Shown here: piece after piece, positions 1,285 through 37,282 of the stretch
How positions within the stretch are numbered: position 1 is the stretch's first letter
Layout of the letters: every line of letters starts with the position of its first letter
DNA from: Aequorivita antarctica
Lineage (GTDB): Bacteria > Bacteroidota > Bacteroidia > Flavobacteriales > Flavobacteriaceae
Assembly: GCF_007997155.1 (NCBI RefSeq)
Contig: NZ_VORT01000019.1
Location: 1 to 37,923, forward strand
Length of the DNA: 37,923 nt
Direction of reading: 5' to 3'
Position numbers and translations under genes: made by a program
Notes under the pieces: generated by a model
The model's database searches: none
Told to the model about the DNA's origin: nothing
Seen by the model: the letters and a program-made list of their open reading frames with translations, nothing else

Positions 1285-2955
1285 ATGAATGAGCAAAACA
1301 TTTCCCTATTAATTCGTCACATAGCAGGCTCCAAAAAAGGTCAAGTTGAAAAATTTTCAGTTGCAAGCACACCTGAAATTCGAATAGGCCGCGGATTGGA
1401 TAACGATGTAAGCTTCGACCCTGTTAAGGAAGATACCATCAGTCGCGACCATTGCCGTATTGTTCAGGATAGCATAAATCCGGAGCGGTTCTACATCACG
1501 GACAGCCAAAGCAAAAACGGAACTTTTGTAAATGATGTAAAAACTGCTGGTAAAACCGAGCTTTTTGCGGGTGACATCGTAAAGCTAGGGAAGGACGGCC
1601 CTTCCTTTGAATTTGATCTTGATCCGCGCCCACAGTCGCATATTAAAAAGACCCGTATCATAGATGCTGTTGCAGCAAAAGAAACAAAGATTCATACTGC
1701 TACTGATTTACCTAAGGCCACTTCAGAGAAAACCCCACCCGCAAAAGAAGGTATCGGCAAGAATACCATGCAGCACATGATTCGCGAGTCTGAAAAGAAA
1801 AGTAAAACCGGTCTAGTGATTACGATAATTGCTGTATTGCTTCTGGTTTCAACTGGCGGATATTTGTTGTTTAAAAATCAGAAGGTAAAGGAAATCGTTC
1901 ACGTGACCGACCCTAAAACTACCTTTACCCCAACCGAAATAGCGAAGGCTAGCCAAGACAAGGTGATTTATATAGAGATGGCCTGGAAACTTACAAGTAC
2001 GGCATCTAGCGAGGAAATGTATCATGTTTATTATCCTGTTGTGCAGGATAAAAAAATTGTTGGATACCAAGGTGGCTATACCCAAAATGACCAGGGAGCA
2101 ATCGTACCCATGCTGGTAACAAAGGGCGACTATCTTAAGTCATTCGGTAATTATGATGGTATAGAGCTTGACCTTATTGCGAGCGCCGGTAGTGGCAGCG
2201 GTTTCGTTGTGGATGATAGAGGTTTTATTGCAACCAATAGACATGTAGCTTCCAATTGGCTCACAAGCTTTCGCTTTCAAGACTATGCTTTTCCCGGGGT
2301 ACTTATAGAGCCTAATCAAAACGGACAATTGGCACCAGCTTGGGATAAACAAATTTCAAGGGAAATGGTAGGCGAATGGGTTCCTGGCAACGATAAAAGA
2401 TACACAGGTGTAAATACATATCTTGATGTAACCTTTGCCAATAACTCACAAAGAACGCCAGCGAAGATCGTGCGTATCTCTTCTACACATGATGTAGCGA
2501 TGATTAAAATTGATTTGCCAGAGGCTTTACCAAAGGTGGAACTTTATGACAGTTATGATGAAATTGCACCAGGAGATGCTACCATTGTTATGGGGTATCC
2601 AGGAATTGCACCGGCACAGCTTGTTCTTAAGCGTTCGCAGGATGTATTTAACACCAATGCAAATATTACCTCCGTTCCCGTTCCCACTATTAGCACAGGA
2701 AACGTTGGACGAATGGTGCGTGGTTCCGAAAAGAACAGCAAGATTGATGATTACAAATCTACCTTCGGGGACTATTATCAACTTACCATCAATTCTACAG
2801 GTGGTGGCAACAGCGGCGGACCTATGTTTGACGACAAGGGACGCGTAGTGGGTGTGTTCAGCGCTGGCAAATGGGAACCAGGCACCGCTATTAGTTTTGC
2901 CGTTCCCATCAAGTATGTAATGGAACTAATGGGCCGTCAGGAAGTAATTAAATAG
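1285..2955 (+). CDS. FHA domain - transmembrane - trypsin-like serine protease
   Basis: This 556-residue protein joins a cytoplasmic phosphothreonine-reader to an outward-facing protease. Residues 1-112 form an FHA domain with the usual landmarks: IGRG around Arg36, SRDH at 53-56 and NGTFVN at 78-83. A linker rich in Lys, Thr and Ala leads to one membrane helix at about 176-196. Residues 215-550 are an HtrA/trypsin-type domain: His320 in ATNRHVAS, Asp403 in THDVAMIKID and Ser510 in GGGNSGGPMF make a complete triad. There is no PDZ domain, unlike HtrA/DegP, and an unusual 100-residue insert separates helix and catalytic His. The FHA domain presumably binds targets phosphorylated by the kinase two genes downstream. 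Domain calls are secure; the pathway is inferred. Confidence 0.9.
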   Translation: MNEQNISLLIRHIAGSKKGQVEKFSVASTPEIRIGRGLDNDVSFDPVKEDTISRDHCRIVQDSINPERFYITDSQSKNGTFVNDVKTAGKTELFAGDIVKLGKDGPSFEFDLDPRPQSHIKKTRIIDAVAAKETKIHTATDLPKATSEKTPPAKEGIGKNTMQHMIRESEKKSKTGLVITIIAVLLLVSTGGYLLFKNQKVKEIVHVTDPKTTFTPTEIAKASQDKVIYIEMAWKLTSTASSEEMYHVYYPVVQDKKIVGYQGGYTQNDQGAIVPMLVTKGDYLKSFGNYDGIELDLIASAGSGSGFVVDDRGFIATNRHVASNWLTSFRFQDYAFPGVLIEPNQNGQLAPAWDKQISREMVGEWVPGNDKRYTGVNTYLDVTFANNSQRTPAKIVRISSTHDVAMIKIDLPEALPKVELYDSYDEIAPGDATIVMGYPGIAPAQLVLKRSQDVFNTNANITSVPVPTISTGNVGRMVRGSEKNSKIDDYKSTFGDYYQLTINSTGGGNSGGPMFDDKGRVVGVFSAGKWEPGTAISFAVPIKYVMELMGRQEVIK

Positions 2956-2989
2956 CAGTCTTTTTTCAATTAATAGATTTTTAAGATGA

Positions 2990-3042
2990 TTACTGTCGCT
3001 TTTTCCACCAGTTCCAATTACAGCGCTGTTGGAAGACAGTAA
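2990..3042 (+). promoter_or_regulatory. Nested inverted repeat in the gap before the phosphatase gene
   Basis: TTACTGTC at 2990-2997 pairs with GACAGTAA at 3035-3042, and inside it TTCCA (3003-3007) pairs with TGGAA (3030-3034). A GC-rich AGCGCT sits in the loop. No T-run follows, so it is not a simple terminator. It may be an RNA structure tuning expression of the phosphatase and kinase relative to the protease, or a protein-binding dyad. Confidence 0.35.
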
Positions 3043-3065
3043 CCTAGCATTTAACAATAACAACT

Positions 3066-3926
3066 ATGAAGTTTTTGTTTTCAAAAAATAATAATAAGCT
3101 CCCTGATTCAACTAAGAATAACCCTAGCAGTAAAGGGAAATTCTGTGCAGTCTATGCCATTTCAGAAACAGGCCCGGTACGCGATCACAATGAAGACTCC
3201 ATCGCTTTTTCCTTTCCGGAAAATAACAGACATAATCTTATTGCTGTGGTGGCAGATGGTATGGGAGGACACAATGCAGGTGAAGTAGCCAGTAAGATGG
3301 CTTGCGATCTGTTGCTTGACTACTGTTTGAAAAATTGGAAACAGCAGGCTCCAGATAAACTGCTTCATAAAGCATATTTGGAGGCGCACCAAACGATTGT
3401 TACAGCTGGTAATTCAAATTCCGAACAGAAGGGAATGGGTACCACGGCCACTTCGGTGATTATTCATAAAAATGCTTGTTATATAGGGCACATTGGTGAT
3501 AGTCGTGCTTACTTGTTACGGAATGACAGTTTAATGCAGCTAAGCAAAGACCACACCTTAGTCAATCAAATGTATGAAAATGGTGAGATTACAGAAAAGG
3601 AACGAGATCATCATCCAATGAAAAATGTGTTATTGCAAGCAATGGGCACCACCCCCACCATACAACCTCAGATTCTGGCTGATGGATGGTCAATAATGGA
3701 AGGCGATCGTTTGTTTCTATGCTCTGATGGGGTGTATGATGCACTGAGTGAGGAAGATATTGAAGACTTACTTTTAATAAAACGCCCTGAATTTGCACTG
3801 GAATGTCTCAGTGCAACGGCAACGGCTCGCAATGTCTCTGACAACTTCTCAGCTTTGCTGATAGATATTTCATCGGGCGTTCAATCGAATCCTTCAATGA
3901 CAAAAGAACAAAATATAGTACAATGA
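3066..3926 (+). CDS. PP2C-family serine/threonine protein phosphatase
   Basis: The 286-residue protein is a soluble metal-dependent (Mn/Mg) phosphatase of the PPM/PP2C (Stp/PrpC) type that removes phosphate from Ser and Thr. All core motifs are present: RDHNED at 39-44, VADGMGGHNAGEVAS at 62-76, GMGTTATSV at 123-131, GDSRAYLL at 144-151, a CSDGVYD segment near 219-225 and SDNFSALLIDI at 258-268, supplying the metal-binding aspartates. A short Lys/Asn/Ser-rich N-terminal tail precedes the domain. Its stop codon overlaps the kinase start by four bases (ATGA), so the two are translationally coupled, the standard kinase/phosphatase pairing. It presumably reverses phosphorylation by that kinase and of the FHA-protease ligand. 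Confidence 0.93.
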   Translation: MKFLFSKNNNKLPDSTKNNPSSKGKFCAVYAISETGPVRDHNEDSIAFSFPENNRHNLIAVVADGMGGHNAGEVASKMACDLLLDYCLKNWKQQAPDKLLHKAYLEAHQTIVTAGNSNSEQKGMGTTATSVIIHKNACYIGHIGDSRAYLLRNDSLMQLSKDHTLVNQMYENGEITEKERDHHPMKNVLLQAMGTTPTIQPQILADGWSIMEGDRLFLCSDGVYDALSEEDIEDLLLIKRPEFALECLSATATARNVSDNFSALLIDISSGVQSNPSMTKEQNIVQ

Positions 3927-5644
3927 GCGGACTAGGCAGTCAATACGAAATTATCCAAAAACTCGGCGAAGGCGGAATGGGAACGGTTTATCTCGCAAAA
4001 GATACCATGATTGACCGTTTGGTCGCCATAAAACAACTTCACCGGAATACAGGATCAGAAGAAGAGAGTCTTGGAGAACGTTTTCAAGCAGAAGCGCTAG
4101 CACTCGCCAAACTGAATAACCCCAACGTAACCCATCTCTATTCTTTCATTCCAAAGGAGGATACTTATTGGATGATCATGGAATACGTGGAAGGAAAGAC
4201 GCTCGAAGACTGGCTTTTTGTCCACAAAAAAATTACACATCAACTAGCTGCAAGCATTACCGTACAAATACTTGATGGTTTACATCATGCACATCGTAAG
4301 GGCATCATTCACCGCGATATAAAACCAGCCAATGTTATGATTAATGAAGATGGCGAGGTAAAGATCATGGACTTCGGTATTGCAAGAATGCGCAATGCAC
4401 AGCGTATTACCAGTCACGGTAAATCAGTGGGAACACTAGAATATATGGCGCCGGAACAAATCCAAGGCCATGAAGGTGATGAAAGAACAGACATCTATGC
4501 CGTGGGTAATATTCTGTACGAAATGCTTTGCGGAACTACTCCTTTCCAAAGTGATACCGATTATATCTTGATGAAGGACAAGTTGGAGAAACAACCGGAA
4601 TCTATCTTACGGGAAAATCCCACGGTTCCTGAATCTCTTGAGAAGATAATCTTTAAAGCCCTTCAGCGCAATCCCAATAAAAGATATCAAACCGCCCGCG
4701 AGCTGAAATCTGCCATTGAGAAATGTCTGGATGGAACGTTGCTGGATCAGTTCACACTCAGTAAAGTACTTAAAGCGTCACAGGTTTTCACAGCGCCAGA
4801 AAAAGGAAATGAAATTATCTCTGTCAGCAATATTTTGTCCCGCGCAAAATCAATCTCGGGAAGATTCAGAGTTCCCAGTGCGGGAAAGTTTAAAGTTCCA
4901 ACTGTTGGTAAAATTAATAGGTCTTATCTAATTCTTGGCGCTTCCGTACTGCTATGTCTCATTCTATTGATTTGGAGTGGAGGAACAGAAGTTAGCAAGA
5001 CCGACGAAATACCTGAAACCCCTGTTGTTACTTGGGAAGAACCCGCGGATGAGCCAGAACAGGATATGGCAGAGCAAAGTTCCGGTAATTTTGATGAGAC
5101 CCCAAGTGAAATGTACCGTCGTATTGCTAAGCCAACAGAAGTAAAAGCAAAACCCAAAGAAGAGAAAAACAACGTAAAAAAGAGTGTAAACAACACAACG
5201 GATAATAAGCCATCAAATACTCCACAACAGACTGAGCTTAGTGAAAATATAAATAAAGAGCGAACGGTTCCAAACACTCCTGCAGAGGTTCCTTCAGGAA
5301 AATCAATTCTTGTAACCTTACAGGAAGATTTAAGTTCTGAGGAAAAAGAACGTGACGGAAAGCTAATTCGGCTCACTTGTAATGAAGATGTGCTTGCAGA
5401 CAACAGGGTTATTATTCGTAAAGGTTCAACGGTTACGGGAAAGATTGTGGACTGCGTACCCTCAAATAGTAAAAAGAAAGCTTTAATTGGTTTTGTAATC
5501 ATTCGGGTGGAAGCAGTGGACGGCAGTACGGTCAAATTAAAGTCGAAACGCTTCCGTTTATTTGCTGATGTTCCGGGAAAAGCCATTAGCTATCGTTCCG
5601 GACAGACTTTTGAAGCAATACTGCAGCGAGGCATTGTGAAGTAG
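3923..5644 (+). CDS. Transmembrane serine/threonine protein kinase (PknB-like)
   Basis: The 573-residue protein has an N-terminal Hanks-type kinase domain (about 8-275): glycine loop GEGGMGTV at 15-22, catalytic Lys37 in VAIK, HRDIKPAN with Asp132, DFG at 150-152 and APE at 176-178, all intact. A linker with a basic stretch leads to one membrane helix at about 333-354. The outer part begins with a low-complexity Glu/Pro/Lys/Asn region and ends in a roughly 110-residue beta-rich domain (about 460-573) with the pattern IRKGSTVTGKIV, like the beta-barrel modules of envelope proteins. It has no PASTA repeats. The outer domain could sense the envelope. The gene overlaps the phosphatase by four bases and ends the three-gene unit. 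Confidence 0.93.
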   Translation: MSGLGSQYEIIQKLGEGGMGTVYLAKDTMIDRLVAIKQLHRNTGSEEESLGERFQAEALALAKLNNPNVTHLYSFIPKEDTYWMIMEYVEGKTLEDWLFVHKKITHQLAASITVQILDGLHHAHRKGIIHRDIKPANVMINEDGEVKIMDFGIARMRNAQRITSHGKSVGTLEYMAPEQIQGHEGDERTDIYAVGNILYEMLCGTTPFQSDTDYILMKDKLEKQPESILRENPTVPESLEKIIFKALQRNPNKRYQTARELKSAIEKCLDGTLLDQFTLSKVLKASQVFTAPEKGNEIISVSNILSRAKSISGRFRVPSAGKFKVPTVGKINRSYLILGASVLLCLILLIWSGGTEVSKTDEIPETPVVTWEEPADEPEQDMAEQSSGNFDETPSEMYRRIAKPTEVKAKPKEEKNNVKKSVNNTTDNKPSNTPQQTELSENINKERTVPNTPAEVPSGKSILVTLQEDLSSEEKERDGKLIRLTCNEDVLADNRVIIRKGSTVTGKIVDCVPSNSKKKALIGFVIIRVEAVDGSTVKLKSKRFRLFADVPGKAISYRSGQTFEAILQRGIVK

Positions 5645-19666: not shown

Positions 19667-20761
19667 ATGAAAAAAATATACGCAGCAGCACTTTTCTTTT
19701 TAGCAACTTCATTTTCACCAAACACATTGTTCGCACAATGTGGAGATGTTACAATTGAGAGTTTAACAAACCCAGGTCCTTATGACGTTGCTACACTTAC
19801 CGAAGCGGATGGACTTAGAAATGGTCCAGATTATTTAGATGCTACCGTATATTATCCCACAAATGCCACACCTCCCTTTGCAAGTATTGCCATCGTTCCT
19901 GGATTTACAGCACTACCATCAAGTGTTGAAGAATGGGGGCCTTTTTATGCTTCACACGGAATAGTAACCATCATTATTGGAACCAACTCGCTTTTTGATT
20001 TTCCAGAAGAAAGGGCTGTGGCACTTATAGATGCTTTGGAAACTATGCGTCAGGAAAATACCCGAAGCTCATCTCCATTAGAAAACCAGCTTGATGTTGA
20101 CAAATTTGCAGTGAGCGGATGGTCTATGGGCGGCGGCGGCGCGCAGCGTGCAGCTGTATTGGACAATACCATAAAAGGTGTGGTTGCTTTGTGCCCTTGG
20201 TTGCCAAACCCTTCCTTAAACCACGACAGTCCTGTATTAATTTTTAGTGGTGAAAATGATCCTACCGCACCTCCCGCACAACACGCAGACCTGCATTATG
20301 CAGCTACTCCAGAAACAACCAACAAACTTCTTTTTGAAATTGAAAATGGAAATCATTCTGTGGCTAATACGCCTGATGGTGGTAATGGTGCTGTGGGTAA
20401 AATTGCGCTTTCTTGGCTTAAGCTATATGTAGATGAAAATGATTGTTATTGTCCGTTATTAACTGAGTCACTATTAGTAGATCCTCCAGCGGCTTCTAAA
20501 GTACTATCTAGTTTTGAATGTGAGTTGCTTAGTGTGCCTGATAATAGTTTTGCGATAAGCGTATATCCAAACCCCACAAAAGACTTTGTAAATATAAATA
20601 GTACCAATCCCGTACATTTTGAAGTGTATTCTGCGCTTGGGCAACGATTACTGTCTGGTGAACTTACCCAAAGTGAAAAGCAGATTGACTTTTCAAACTT
20701 TGCAAAGGGCCTTTATTATGTGCATTTAGGGAATGAAACTGTGAAGGTTATTAGAAACTAA
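19667..20761 (+). CDS. Secreted PETase/cutinase-type alpha/beta hydrolase with T9SS sorting domain
   Basis: The 364-residue protein has a signal peptide (1-24, ending LFAQ), a polyester-hydrolase domain (about 25-265) and a C-terminal type IX secretion tag (about 296-364: SVYPNPTKDFVNI ... ALGQRLLSGEL ... GLYYVHL ... VKVIRN). The nucleophile elbow is GWSMGGGG with Ser153, identical to that of IsPETase; Asp198 in GENDP and His230 in GNHSVAN complete the triad, and Phe80 in PGFTA with Met154 would form the oxyanion hole. Cys260/262/285 could make disulfides. This architecture matches the Bacteroidota esterases PET27 (Aequorivita) and PET30 (Kaistella). The natural substrate may be cutin-like or another ester. 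Single-gene unit. Confidence 0.92.
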   Translation: MKKIYAAALFFLATSFSPNTLFAQCGDVTIESLTNPGPYDVATLTEADGLRNGPDYLDATVYYPTNATPPFASIAIVPGFTALPSSVEEWGPFYASHGIVTIIIGTNSLFDFPEERAVALIDALETMRQENTRSSSPLENQLDVDKFAVSGWSMGGGGAQRAAVLDNTIKGVVALCPWLPNPSLNHDSPVLIFSGENDPTAPPAQHADLHYAATPETTNKLLFEIENGNHSVANTPDGGNGAVGKIALSWLKLYVDENDCYCPLLTESLLVDPPAASKVLSSFECELLSVPDNSFAISVYPNPTKDFVNINSTNPVHFEVYSALGQRLLSGELTQSEKQIDFSNFAKGLYYVHLGNETVKVIRN

Positions 20762-20856: not shown

Positions 20857-21114
20857 TTAATAATGACCTCTTAGAGAATAGATTGTAATTGTATCTTCAT
20901 TCAGTTTATAAACCAATCGATGCTCTTTGTTTATTCGCCTAGACCAGAATCCCGTTAGTTCGTATTTTAGCAACTCGGGTTTCCCTATACCTTCAAAAGG
21001 AGTTTCTTCAATAGATTTTAAAAGTTTCGTTATTTTATTCTGAATGGTTTTGTCTCCGGATTTCTTCCAGTAAGAAATATCATTAATAGCGTTCTCTGTG
21101 TAGGTTATTTCCAC
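20857..21114 (-). CDS. YoeB-type toxin (Txe/YoeB family mRNA interferase)
   Basis: The 85-residue protein is a RelE-superfamily ribosome-dependent ribonuclease toxin. It matches YoeB along its whole length: TPFEGIGKPELLKYELTGFW, SRRINKEHRLVYKL and the C-terminal RGHY. The catalytic residues correspond to Glu47 (GKPE), Arg66 (EHRLVY), His84 and Tyr85, all present, so the toxin should be active. It is encoded after its antitoxin with a 10-base overlap. The partner is not the usual YefM but another small antitoxin. Confidence 0.93.
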   Translation of the reverse strand: MEITYTENAINDISYWKKSGDKTIQNKITKLLKSIEETPFEGIGKPELLKYELTGFWSRRINKEHRLVYKLNEDTITIYSLRGHY

Positions 21115-21305
21115 AAATCATCGGTTTTGATGGCTTTGGTCTTACCATAGTTTTCCTCTTCTTCGCTAGCTTTTATTTTTGCAACAAACTCGGGATTATA
21201 CGTACTTTCGCCTTTAGATTCAAAAGGAATTTCCATTGCCTTAAGCACTGCTTTTATAGCTTTGGTCTGTGCTTTGTTCTTAGTGTGGATTGTAAGAGTT
21301 TCCAT
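21105..21305 (-). CDS. Antitoxin of the YoeB-type module (DUF2683-like)
   Basis: The 66-residue protein precedes and overlaps the toxin gene, the usual order. It opens METLTIHTKNKAQTKAIKAVLKAMEIPFE, an N-terminal part shared with DUF2683-type antitoxins from Bacteroidota, then an acidic, probably flexible C-terminus (ASEEEENYGKTKAIKTDDLWK) of the kind that wraps the toxin. There is no obvious Phd/YefM DNA-binding fold, so how it represses its operon is unclear. Confidence 0.85.
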   Translation of the reverse strand: METLTIHTKNKAQTKAIKAVLKAMEIPFESKGESTYNPEFVAKIKASEEEENYGKTKAIKTDDLWK

Positions 21306-22128: not shown

Positions 22129-24135
22129 CTAAAAAGATAGAAATTCTTTTTGATTACGAATTTTATCTTCATTATTAACTTCATTTAAAAATTTTACACA
22201 CTCTTGGTAGTCAAAAGTAGAATCCTTATGATAATAACCTTTTAATATGGTATTGACAGCTGTAAAATATTCTTTATTTTTATTTAAAACTGAATCTTTT
22301 TTATCATGAATTTTATGAATAATTTTATTTCTTATATTAAATTTTCTCAAATCTGGAATGGTTTTAATTTGAATAGGCTTAATTAAAGTATCTTCCCTTT
22401 TACTTAACAAATACATTATCCAATCAACTGTATAATCATCTTTATGCGAACTAAAAGCAAAAGTATAATTTCCTTTTTCTATATTATTTTTTATTAGATT
22501 GCCAAGTCTTATTCCATAACCCTTATCCTTCACTAGAATATCGCTATTGATAATTTTAAAACATTCAGTCATTCCATAATCAAAATCTTTATTTTTATCT
22601 TTGAAAGCAGCGAGTTGAATTAATATTTCATCTCTATCAAATGTTAACTCTTGCCTTTCAATAATATCTTTTTCATCTAAATTTATGTTCAAATTTTTGT
22701 ACGTAGTATTACAGAAGTTTATAAATTTTATTATTATCTCCTTAGCTATTATTTCACGAAATGTTTTGAAATCGACATTTGAGTATATATCTAAAATGTT
22801 ATTATAATTAGCATTTTGGTTTTTATTCACTAATCCCCTTAATATATTATTTCTTTTCTCTCCCGAATCTAAATATATAAATTGTGTCACAAAGTATTCA
22901 TATATGGATTTGTGAGTCCATTTATAATACATACCTTCCTGAACAAATAAAGGAACCGTAGTAATTAAATCTTTTAAAAAATTTGAATTCTCAAATTCAA
23001 TAATTTCGCAAAAAACTTTTGCATTATTAATTACGTCTAAAATTTCATCTTTTGTAAATTCAATTTTATCCAACTTAAGACAAAGAAAAGAGATATATCT
23101 AGTTATTGTATGAAAATCATCAATACCTAATTTACTAAATTTCTCTCTTTGATAATAATCACCTTTACTTAAATCATGAGCCTCAAATAAAGCATCATAA
23201 ACTTGTCTATAAAAAATATGCTTCTTTAAAGGTATCGTGTGTTTATATTCATAAGCAGTATACAAAAGGGAAACTAATAATGGATTTGTTAAGAATTCGT
23301 CTAAATCTCTATAATTTTCTCCCTTTATCTTTTCTATTAAAGATTTAGATAATGCGCTATTTCCATCATACTTTTTTAATAAAGCATATACTTCGCTTTT
23401 CTGTAATGGGTTAATGAAAAATGACTGAAATTGGCCGAAAGAAGCTAAAGCTCCATCAGGACGTGATGTAAGAAAAAAATTATTATTTGATGCATTGCTA
23501 ATGAATTTTTGTATGTCCTCAGTAACTTGCTTTTTTTCCGATGAAGCAATTTCGTCGTAGCCGTCCAGAAAAAAAACAAAATCACCACGTTTAATTAATT
23601 CTAATATAAATTCAGAATCCTGTTCACTTTCTAAGAGTTTCAATTCATCAAATATCTCATCAATAATCTTTCGAGAATTAGATAATCTTCTTAATTCAAT
23701 CAATATTGGAATTCCTTTATTTTGTTTAATTACAGATAAAAACAATTTTCTTGAGAGAGTTGATTTCCCCATTCCCGCAGTATCTGTAATTAAAACTTTT
23801 TTATATTTGGGAATAAAATCATCACTAAAATCTAAAATTTTATACTTTTTAGGTTTAGTAGACTTTGATTCAATTAAAGTTAATGGTAAATAAATGTCAT
23901 CTAATAATCGTTGTTGGTTTCTGAATGCGAGAATATTTAGTATTGAATATGTTTTATATTTCTCAATTAAGTAATCTTTAAATTTATTATCAAAATAATG
24001 ATCTTGAATTTTATGGGACTTTTCAGCTTTAGAAATTAAAAATTTTATTTTAGGGGATAACCAATGATCAACTAATGTTTTTGATAATGGGGCGGCTATT
24101 GAAGCGATATCCTTAAGTAATTCAATTTTTTCCAT
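22129..24135 (-). CDS. NACHT-domain NTPase (bacterial NLR-like, probable antiphage protein)
   Basis: The 668-residue protein is a STAND/NACHT NTPase. After an N-terminal helical region of about 110 residues that has no known effector, Walker A is DTAGMGKST at 118-126, Walker B FVFFLDGYDEIAS at 186-198 with the NACHT-typical GYDE, and the sensor-type FFLTSRPDG at 220-228. A winged-helix/helical part follows (INPLQKSEVYALLKKY, LLVSLLYTAYEY) and a C-terminal region of about 250 residues with no TPR, LRR or WD repeats. Bacterial NACHT proteins include many antiphage defences related to animal NLRs. The gene is much more AT-rich than its neighbours, sits 31 bases after mcmA on the same strand, and is followed by repeats: signs of recent acquisition. 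Confidence 0.88.
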   Translation of the reverse strand: MEKIELLKDIASIAAPLSKTLVDHWLSPKIKFLISKAEKSHKIQDHYFDNKFKDYLIEKYKTYSILNILAFRNQQRLLDDIYLPLTLIESKSTKPKKYKILDFSDDFIPKYKKVLITDTAGMGKSTLSRKLFLSVIKQNKGIPILIELRRLSNSRKIIDEIFDELKLLESEQDSEFILELIKRGDFVFFLDGYDEIASSEKKQVTEDIQKFISNASNNNFFLTSRPDGALASFGQFQSFFINPLQKSEVYALLKKYDGNSALSKSLIEKIKGENYRDLDEFLTNPLLVSLLYTAYEYKHTIPLKKHIFYRQVYDALFEAHDLSKGDYYQREKFSKLGIDDFHTITRYISFLCLKLDKIEFTKDEILDVINNAKVFCEIIEFENSNFLKDLITTVPLFVQEGMYYKWTHKSIYEYFVTQFIYLDSGEKRNNILRGLVNKNQNANYNNILDIYSNVDFKTFREIIAKEIIIKFINFCNTTYKNLNINLDEKDIIERQELTFDRDEILIQLAAFKDKNKDFDYGMTECFKIINSDILVKDKGYGIRLGNLIKNNIEKGNYTFAFSSHKDDYTVDWIMYLLSKREDTLIKPIQIKTIPDLRKFNIRNKIIHKIHDKKDSVLNKNKEYFTAVNTILKGYYHKDSTFDYQECVKFLNEVNNEDKIRNQKEFLSF

Positions 24136-36108: not shown

Positions 36109-36196
36109 GGATAAATATTTCTTATTTTTTAATAATTTGCAAAGCGGTTATTCTTCCGTTGCAGAAAAGATTCTGAAGCACAAGCCATTCATTCTT

Positions 36197-37282
36197 ATGA
36201 TTTTACAAAAACTGTCTTTACTCAACTATAAAAACTTTGAAGCCGAAACCTTCGAATTCGACCCAAAAATAAATTGTTTTGTAGGAAATAACGGTGTTGG
36301 AAAGACCAATGTGCTCGATGCAATCTACCATCTTTCCTTTGGAAAAAGTTACTTTAATCCAATAACTACGCAAAATATTAGACACGGGGAAGAGTTTTTT
36401 GTGGTTGAAGGATTTTATGAGAAAAACGATTCTGCAGAAAAAATTGTGGTGAGTGCCAAAAGAGGGCAGAAAAAAATCATAAAACGAAACGGGAAAGGCT
36501 ACGACAAATTTAGTGAGCATATTGGGTTTTTGCCATTAGTAATTATTTCGCCAGCAGATAGAGATTTGATTATTGAAGGGAGTGAAACGCGAAGAAAATT
36601 TGTTGATGGCGTTATTTCGCAGCGGGATTCCGAATATCTGCAGACGCTCATCAAATACAATAAAGTTTTAGTACAGCGCAATTCATTGTTAAAATATTTT
36701 GCGGCAAACAATACCTTCAGTCAAGACACGATTGATATTTACAACGAGCAGCTGCATAATTTCGGCACTTCAATTTTTGGGAAACGGACTGCTTTTTTGG
36801 AAGAATTTCTCCCAATATTTTTAAATCGTTACAAATCCATCAGCAGCGGTGAAGAAACTATCAATTTGGTCTATGAAAGCCAATTACAGGAAAACGACCT
36901 GTTAACACTGCTTCAGAAGAATATTACAAAAGATAAAATCACGCAATACACCAATTTCGGAATACACAAAGATGATTTGGTTTTTGAAATTGACGGCCAT
37001 CCTATTAAGAAATTTGGCTCGCAGGGACAACAAAAATCGTACCTTATAGCTTTAAAATTAGCGCAATTCGATTTTATAAAAAACCATTCAAAAACGAACC
37101 CGATTTTGCTATTGGATGATATTTTTGATAAATTGGACGAAACGCGGGTGGAGCATTTAATTTCTTTGGTAGACAATGAAAATTTCGGCCAGCTTTTTAT
37201 TAGCGATACCCATGCAGAACGCACCGAAGAAGTGATTAGAAAAGTGCATCAGACTTATAAAATGTTTCCTTTGGCCCCCTAA
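36197..37282 (+). CDS. recF: DNA replication and repair protein RecF
   Basis: A 361-residue SMC-like ATPase that loads RecA at single-strand gaps together with RecO and RecR. It starts [21 protein letters not shown], the family opening, at ATG 36197; an upstream in-frame ATG at 36137 adds an atypical 20 residues. Walker A is GNNGVGKT at 30-37, the ABC signature is GSQGQQKS at 274-281, and Walker [13 protein letters not shown] begins at 303. All are intact. It is not next to dnaA or dnaN here. Divergent from the TPR gene. Confidence 0.96.

Follow-up and report, generated by a model that had tools for sequence, protein, structure and literature searches.

An earlier note on this DNA described the gene at positions 19667 to 20761 of the window, the whole stretch of 37,923 nucleotides from Aequorivita antarctica analyzed here, as encoding a secreted PETase-type hydrolase. 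We consider it very likely that the product is the ortholog of PET27 in another Aequorivita species and that it would act as a promiscuous, exported serine esterase. Its family, domain order, and orthology are read from the sequence itself, and its presumed export, activity, and substrates are carried over from PET27 and PET30.

Domain organization and export

The open reading frame at 19667..20761 on the forward strand starts with ATG and yields a 364-residue product with the following features.

19667..20761, forward strand: gene for a PET27-type secreted esterase, 364 amino acids (open reading frame, PF12740, PF18962, identity to PET27 and PET30)
19667..19735, forward strand: putative signal peptide, residues 1-23 (hydrophobic N-terminus; cleavage site 23/24 carried over from PET27)
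19751..20464, forward strand: alpha/beta-hydrolase (PETase-like) catalytic domain, residues 29-266 (PF12740)
20123..20125, forward strand: predicted catalytic Ser153 in GWSMGGGG (aligned with IsPETase Ser160; S in all of the best 120 homologs)
20258..20260, forward strand: predicted catalytic Asp198 (aligned with IsPETase Asp206; D in all of the best 120)
20354..20356, forward strand: predicted catalytic His230 (aligned with IsPETase His237; H in all of the best 120)
20561..20749, forward strand: type IX secretion C-terminal sorting domain, residues 299-361 (PF18962, TIGR04183)

The Pfam model PF12740 (PETase) matches residues 29-266 with an E value of 1e-54 and 186.2 bits against a cut-off of 28, and a whole-genome scan with this model returns the same stretch of the gene. 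At low scores PF12740 alone is unspecific, given that it matches 6 of 14 control genomes, 4 of these over the cut-off. PF18962 (Pfam) matches residues 299-361 with an E value of 1.6e-12, and TIGR04183 (NCBIfam), which represents the T9SS type A sorting domain, scores 41.9 bits against a cut-off of 23. These domain matches are far above chance level. With a signal-like N-terminus and all three models found, the earlier description of a secreted PETase-type hydrolase carrying a T9SS tag is supported. The NCBIfam equivalog for the BHET hydrolase BdeA (NF051441) reaches 138.9 bits, far under its curated cut-off of 520.

The cleavage site adopted above follows that of PET27, given as 23-24 (PMC8767016, Table 3). 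Export would take two steps, with the signal peptide guiding the protein through the inner membrane and the type IX sorting domain guiding it through the outer one. SprA, a component of the T9SS, is encoded in the same genome (2860 bits), so an export route is likely to be in place.

Orthology with PET27

A protein search returned 1284 proteins at E <= 0.001, and the nearest named homolog among the best 120 of these is a protein of Aequorivita sp. CIP111184 (96%). PET27 is described as WP_111881932, a 364-residue protein of that same strain (PMC8767016). We take the CIP111184 protein (locus L004) to be PET27 because the strain, the length, and the single PF12740 gene agree, the CIP111184 genome having one PF12740 match. 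In the window's genome a single match is strong, at 186.7 bits; two weak matches lie elsewhere, one of 19.5 bits and one of 23.5 bits that rises to 29.7 when in-frame neighbors are included. The L004 protein has a computed mass of 39.2 kDa at full length and 36.7 kDa for residues 24-364, neither of which equals the 37.8 kDa published for PET27 (PMC8767016). Our guess is that the published value refers to the mature form with a tag.

The window and CIP111184 proteins are identical at 350 of 364 positions (96.2%); the catalytic domain accounts for 232 of these (out of 238 residues) and the sorting domain for 62 (out of 66). Four of the 14 substitutions fall in residues 1-23, six in the catalytic domain (from window to PET27: D40E, L57Q, D58G, P182A, E216N, and D237N), and four in the sorting domain; none hits the catalytic triad, the Phe-Met-Trp residues of the cleft, or the cysteines. 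The two proteins are also alike in length, domain order, and gene neighborhood. For this one pair, NG86 estimates are dN 0.012 and dS 0.416 over residues 24-290, and dN 0.033 and dS 0.180 over residues 299-364. These values indicate that purifying selection acts on the pair, which fits a functional enzyme.

A tree of 34 rows built on the first 295 residues places the window protein, PET27, and PET29 within a six-row Aequorivita group with support of 95/96, a value that holds for the group and not for the branching inside it; the bootstrap had not settled. We also observed a 41%-identical relative (L031:6642-7496) on a contig labelled Candidatus Neomarinimicrobiota, outside Bacteroidota, which sits on a long branch of unsure placement.

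Several other relatives have been characterized. PET30 (PDB 7pzj) from Kaistella jeonii is the best solved-structure match (E value of 1.3e-154, residues 1-363), with 225 of 363 residues (62.0%) identical overall and 76.1% in the catalytic domain. It shares the triad, Phe80, Met154, Cys260/262/285, and the sorting domain, but has Tyr at residue 178, where the window protein has Trp. PET29 (A. vladivostokensis) and PET28 (A. viscosa), which we equated with loci L007 and L010 by species and by the single PF12740 gene per genome, are 87.4% and 73.4% identical, respectively. Both belong to the same family with the same triad and cleft residues, which in PET29 are the Phe-Met-Trp set. Additional PET-active secreted hydrolases of flavobacteria are PET93 and PET94 from Maribacter and Arenibacter; by their description these are dienelactone hydrolases without a PorC domain, unlike the window protein (PMC13188925). 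The likeness to PET27 and PET30 proposed in the earlier note is thus borne out, and the comparison supports sharpening that reading to orthology with PET27.

Catalytic residues, cleft, and cysteines

We aligned the window protein with PET27, PET28, PET29, PET30, IsPETase, and LCC. Ser153, Asp198, and His230 lie where the earlier note had placed them, with the serine in GWSMGGGG (a G-x-S-x-G motif), and they align with the triads of PET27, PET30, IsPETase, and LCC alike. The cleft would be formed by Phe80, Met154, and Trp178, the last two being equivalent to Met161 and Trp185 of IsPETase from Ideonella sakaiensis, which is identical at 89 of 233 catalytic-domain positions (38.2%). The window protein differs from IsPETase in having Phe80, Gly195, and Val232 in place of Tyr87, Cys203, and Cys239, and in its additional C-terminal sorting domain.

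Phe80, within PGFTA, and the cysteines at 260, 262, and 285 are present as previously noted, where they had been proposed to set the protein apart from IsPETase. Phe80 indeed replaces Tyr87 of that enzyme, but these residues are usual in the clade and shared with PET27 through PET30. Among the best 120 of 1284 matches, a set that includes the window protein and is silent on distant relatives, Phe80 occurs in 115 (Tyr in the remaining 5), and each of the three cysteines is kept in all 120. We therefore rejected Phe80 and the cysteines as novel features. Cys285 aligns with IsPETase Cys289. The disulfide partner of Cys289 in IsPETase, Cys273, corresponds to Thr266 here, at a distance of four residues from Cys262. 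Cys262 and Cys285 align with the positions of the one disulfide reported for the PET30 structure, Cys262-Cys285 (PMC8767016). What truly distinguishes the window protein from IsPETase is the absence of that enzyme's second cysteine pair, which PET27 and PET30 lack as well.

Predicted activity and native substrate

Outside the cell, Ser153, His230, and Asp198 would hydrolyze ester bonds through the usual acyl-enzyme mechanism. Phe80, Met154, and Trp178 would line the cleft, and the main-chain amides of Phe80 and Met154 would form the oxyanion hole, as in IsPETase. The enzyme is predicted to act on PCL, on BHET, and on esters with short to medium chains, and to attack amorphous PET slowly. PET27 and PET30 are both reported to hydrolyze PET foil, BHET, PCL, Impranil, and pNP esters; PET28 and PET29 shared this range apart from PET foil and particles, on which they were inactive (PMC8767016).

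By analogy with PET27, it is probable that the window protein would act on PET foil. An unlikely alternative is that it resembles PET29, a promiscuous esterase of the same genus that cleaves PCL and BHET but shows no measurable action on foil. This alternative contradicts only the PET-foil clause of the orthology reading, and thus our confidence in the two overlaps. PET29 has the same Phe-Met-Trp cleft, is identical to the window protein at 224 of 238 catalytic-domain positions, and is encoded at the same locus. Moreover, foil activity is not readable from sequence, because the foil-inactive PET29 is identical to PET27 at 229 of 238 positions of this domain. However, the window protein is nearer to PET27 (232 of 238), and at 12 of the 13 positions in residues 24-290 where PET27 and PET29 differ it has the PET27 residue, the exception being position 57. 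This pattern favors foil activity as far as residue identity can indicate it. The negative result for PET29 may also reflect enzyme quality, as suggested by the reported loss of most of the PET27, PET28, and PET29 protein to inclusion bodies (PMC8767016).

Even if foil is attacked, PET hydrolysis by the window protein is probably slow and incidental. Over 120 h at 30 C, PET27 freed 174.4 nmol TPA from PET foil, an amount 4.7-fold below that of IsPETase, and at 4 C no TPA was detectable after 30 days; the authors judge that PET is not the preferred substrate (PMC8767016). The same source calls PET27 and PET30 promiscuous esterases rather than PET esterases in the strict sense (PMC8767016). On the strength of that verdict, the label 'PETase' overstates the role of the window protein. 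A natural ester or polyester is the more likely native substrate. We can tentatively suggest that the true substrate is an unrecognised natural polyester found in cold seas, such as a storage polyester or one resembling cutin, and that PET activity is a by-product, although we regard this particular idea as doubtful.

Despite the export signals and membership in the PETase family, it seems to us highly improbable that the strain mineralizes plastic, as Ideonella does, and that the gene encodes an enzyme devoted to PET degradation. We take PF00848 to represent the terephthalate dioxygenase and PF07519 to represent MHETase. The Rieske dioxygenase family PF00848 has no match in the 99.94%-complete genome, and the same search matches 4 of 14 control genomes. 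The single PF07519 match stays below the cut-off (22 against 29.8 bits), and none of the 14 control genomes matches this family either, leaving this search with no positive control. With no PF00848 match and no PF07519 match over the cut-off, the PET-growth route known from Ideonella appears to be missing. These absences speak against PET as a growth substrate and not against a side activity. In addition, the genes around it are housekeeping genes, a toxin-antitoxin-like pair, and one for a NACHT protein, and the esterase family is spread over many marine flavobacteria. The published view that PET is not preferred by PET27 argues in the same direction.

Just as improbable in our estimation is that a dienelactone hydrolase or ordinary lipase has been misread as a PETase, which the earlier note had named as the finding that would overturn its reading. 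Some sources do label homologs 'lipase' or 'dienelactone hydrolase'. Yet the dienelactone hydrolase model PF01738 scores 20.6 bits, under its gathering cut-off of 21, against 186.2 for PF12740, and the nearest characterized proteins are PET27 and PET30 rather than a dienelactone hydrolase or lipase.

Gene neighborhood and distribution

We surveyed 30 homolog loci plus the window, scoring neighbors by tblastn at E <= 1e-8 over at least 40% of the query. In all five loci whose esterases are 86-96% identical (L004-L008), priA, DUF2147, brkB, nadC, and rlmH lie upstream; DinB does so in four of the five, including the PET27 locus, and methylmalonyl-CoA mutase lies downstream in all three loci that reach far enough (L004, L005, and L007). 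The PET29 gene thus occupies the same locus as the window gene, whereas the PET28 gene has none of the tested neighbors.

None of 22 window neighbors was found in the 25 more distant loci (L009-L033), some of which are short. In 15 of these 25, the esterase gene is near a gene putatively encoding DNA polymerase I, adjoining it in 13 and third upstream in 2. Downstream genes in a subset of loci presumably encode ribosomal proteins. Because the esterase gene lies beside rlmH/DinB in the PET27 group but by the putative DNA polymerase I gene in these 15 distant loci, it has probably moved within the family. Neither setting suggests a polyester pathway or a substrate. Likewise, Pfam scans of 30 proteins, two of them the small open reading frames of the toxin-antitoxin-like pair, indicated no polyester or terephthalate catabolic operon among the 28 other window genes.

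The esterase gene is patchy within the genus and the family. Across 28 genomes from the genus, 10, counting the one that holds the window, score over the PF12740 cut-off. Among the matches listed for 100 family genomes, a full-length match of at least 69% identity occurs in three (the window's own, G077, and G080), and in one further genome (G009) residues 51-361 are matched at 30%. All remaining family matches listed start at residue 217 or later and reflect mainly the shared sorting tail, and for this reason the tally of 75 of 100 family genomes does not count esterases.

Several other genes of the window deserve mention. Directly downstream of the esterase gene, 20857-21305 (reverse strand) encodes a YoeB-like toxin (PF06769) and a DUF2683 partner, likely a toxin-antitoxin pair; a YoeB homolog (78%) is also found near the PET27 gene in L004. 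At 22129-24135 (reverse strand) is a NACHT protein with a short NACHT-associated C-terminal domain, SNaCT5, possibly an anti-phage STAND protein, for which no PADLOC model matched at E <= 0.001. An FHA-trypsin protein, a PP2C phosphatase, and a Ser/Thr kinase are encoded in a row at 1285-5644 (forward strand). In PADLOC, the kinase resembles PD-T4-6 models (best E value of 2.4e-94) and the trypsin part RT-Protease_XI models, matches that may arise from general kinase and protease similarity. Finally, the SMC/AAA ATPase encoded at 36137-37282 (forward strand) finds its best match in PADLOC with mad3 of mads_3 (80.5 bits).

Implications

The window protein is new, but it is the ortholog of a characterized enzyme: real, correctly recognized, and ordinary. 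It leaves knowledge of the family unchanged. Its value is that of a natural variant that differs from PET27 by six substitutions in the catalytic domain. Because close relatives are reported to differ in their action on PET foil, this protein would be useful for finding the positions that enable foil hydrolysis.
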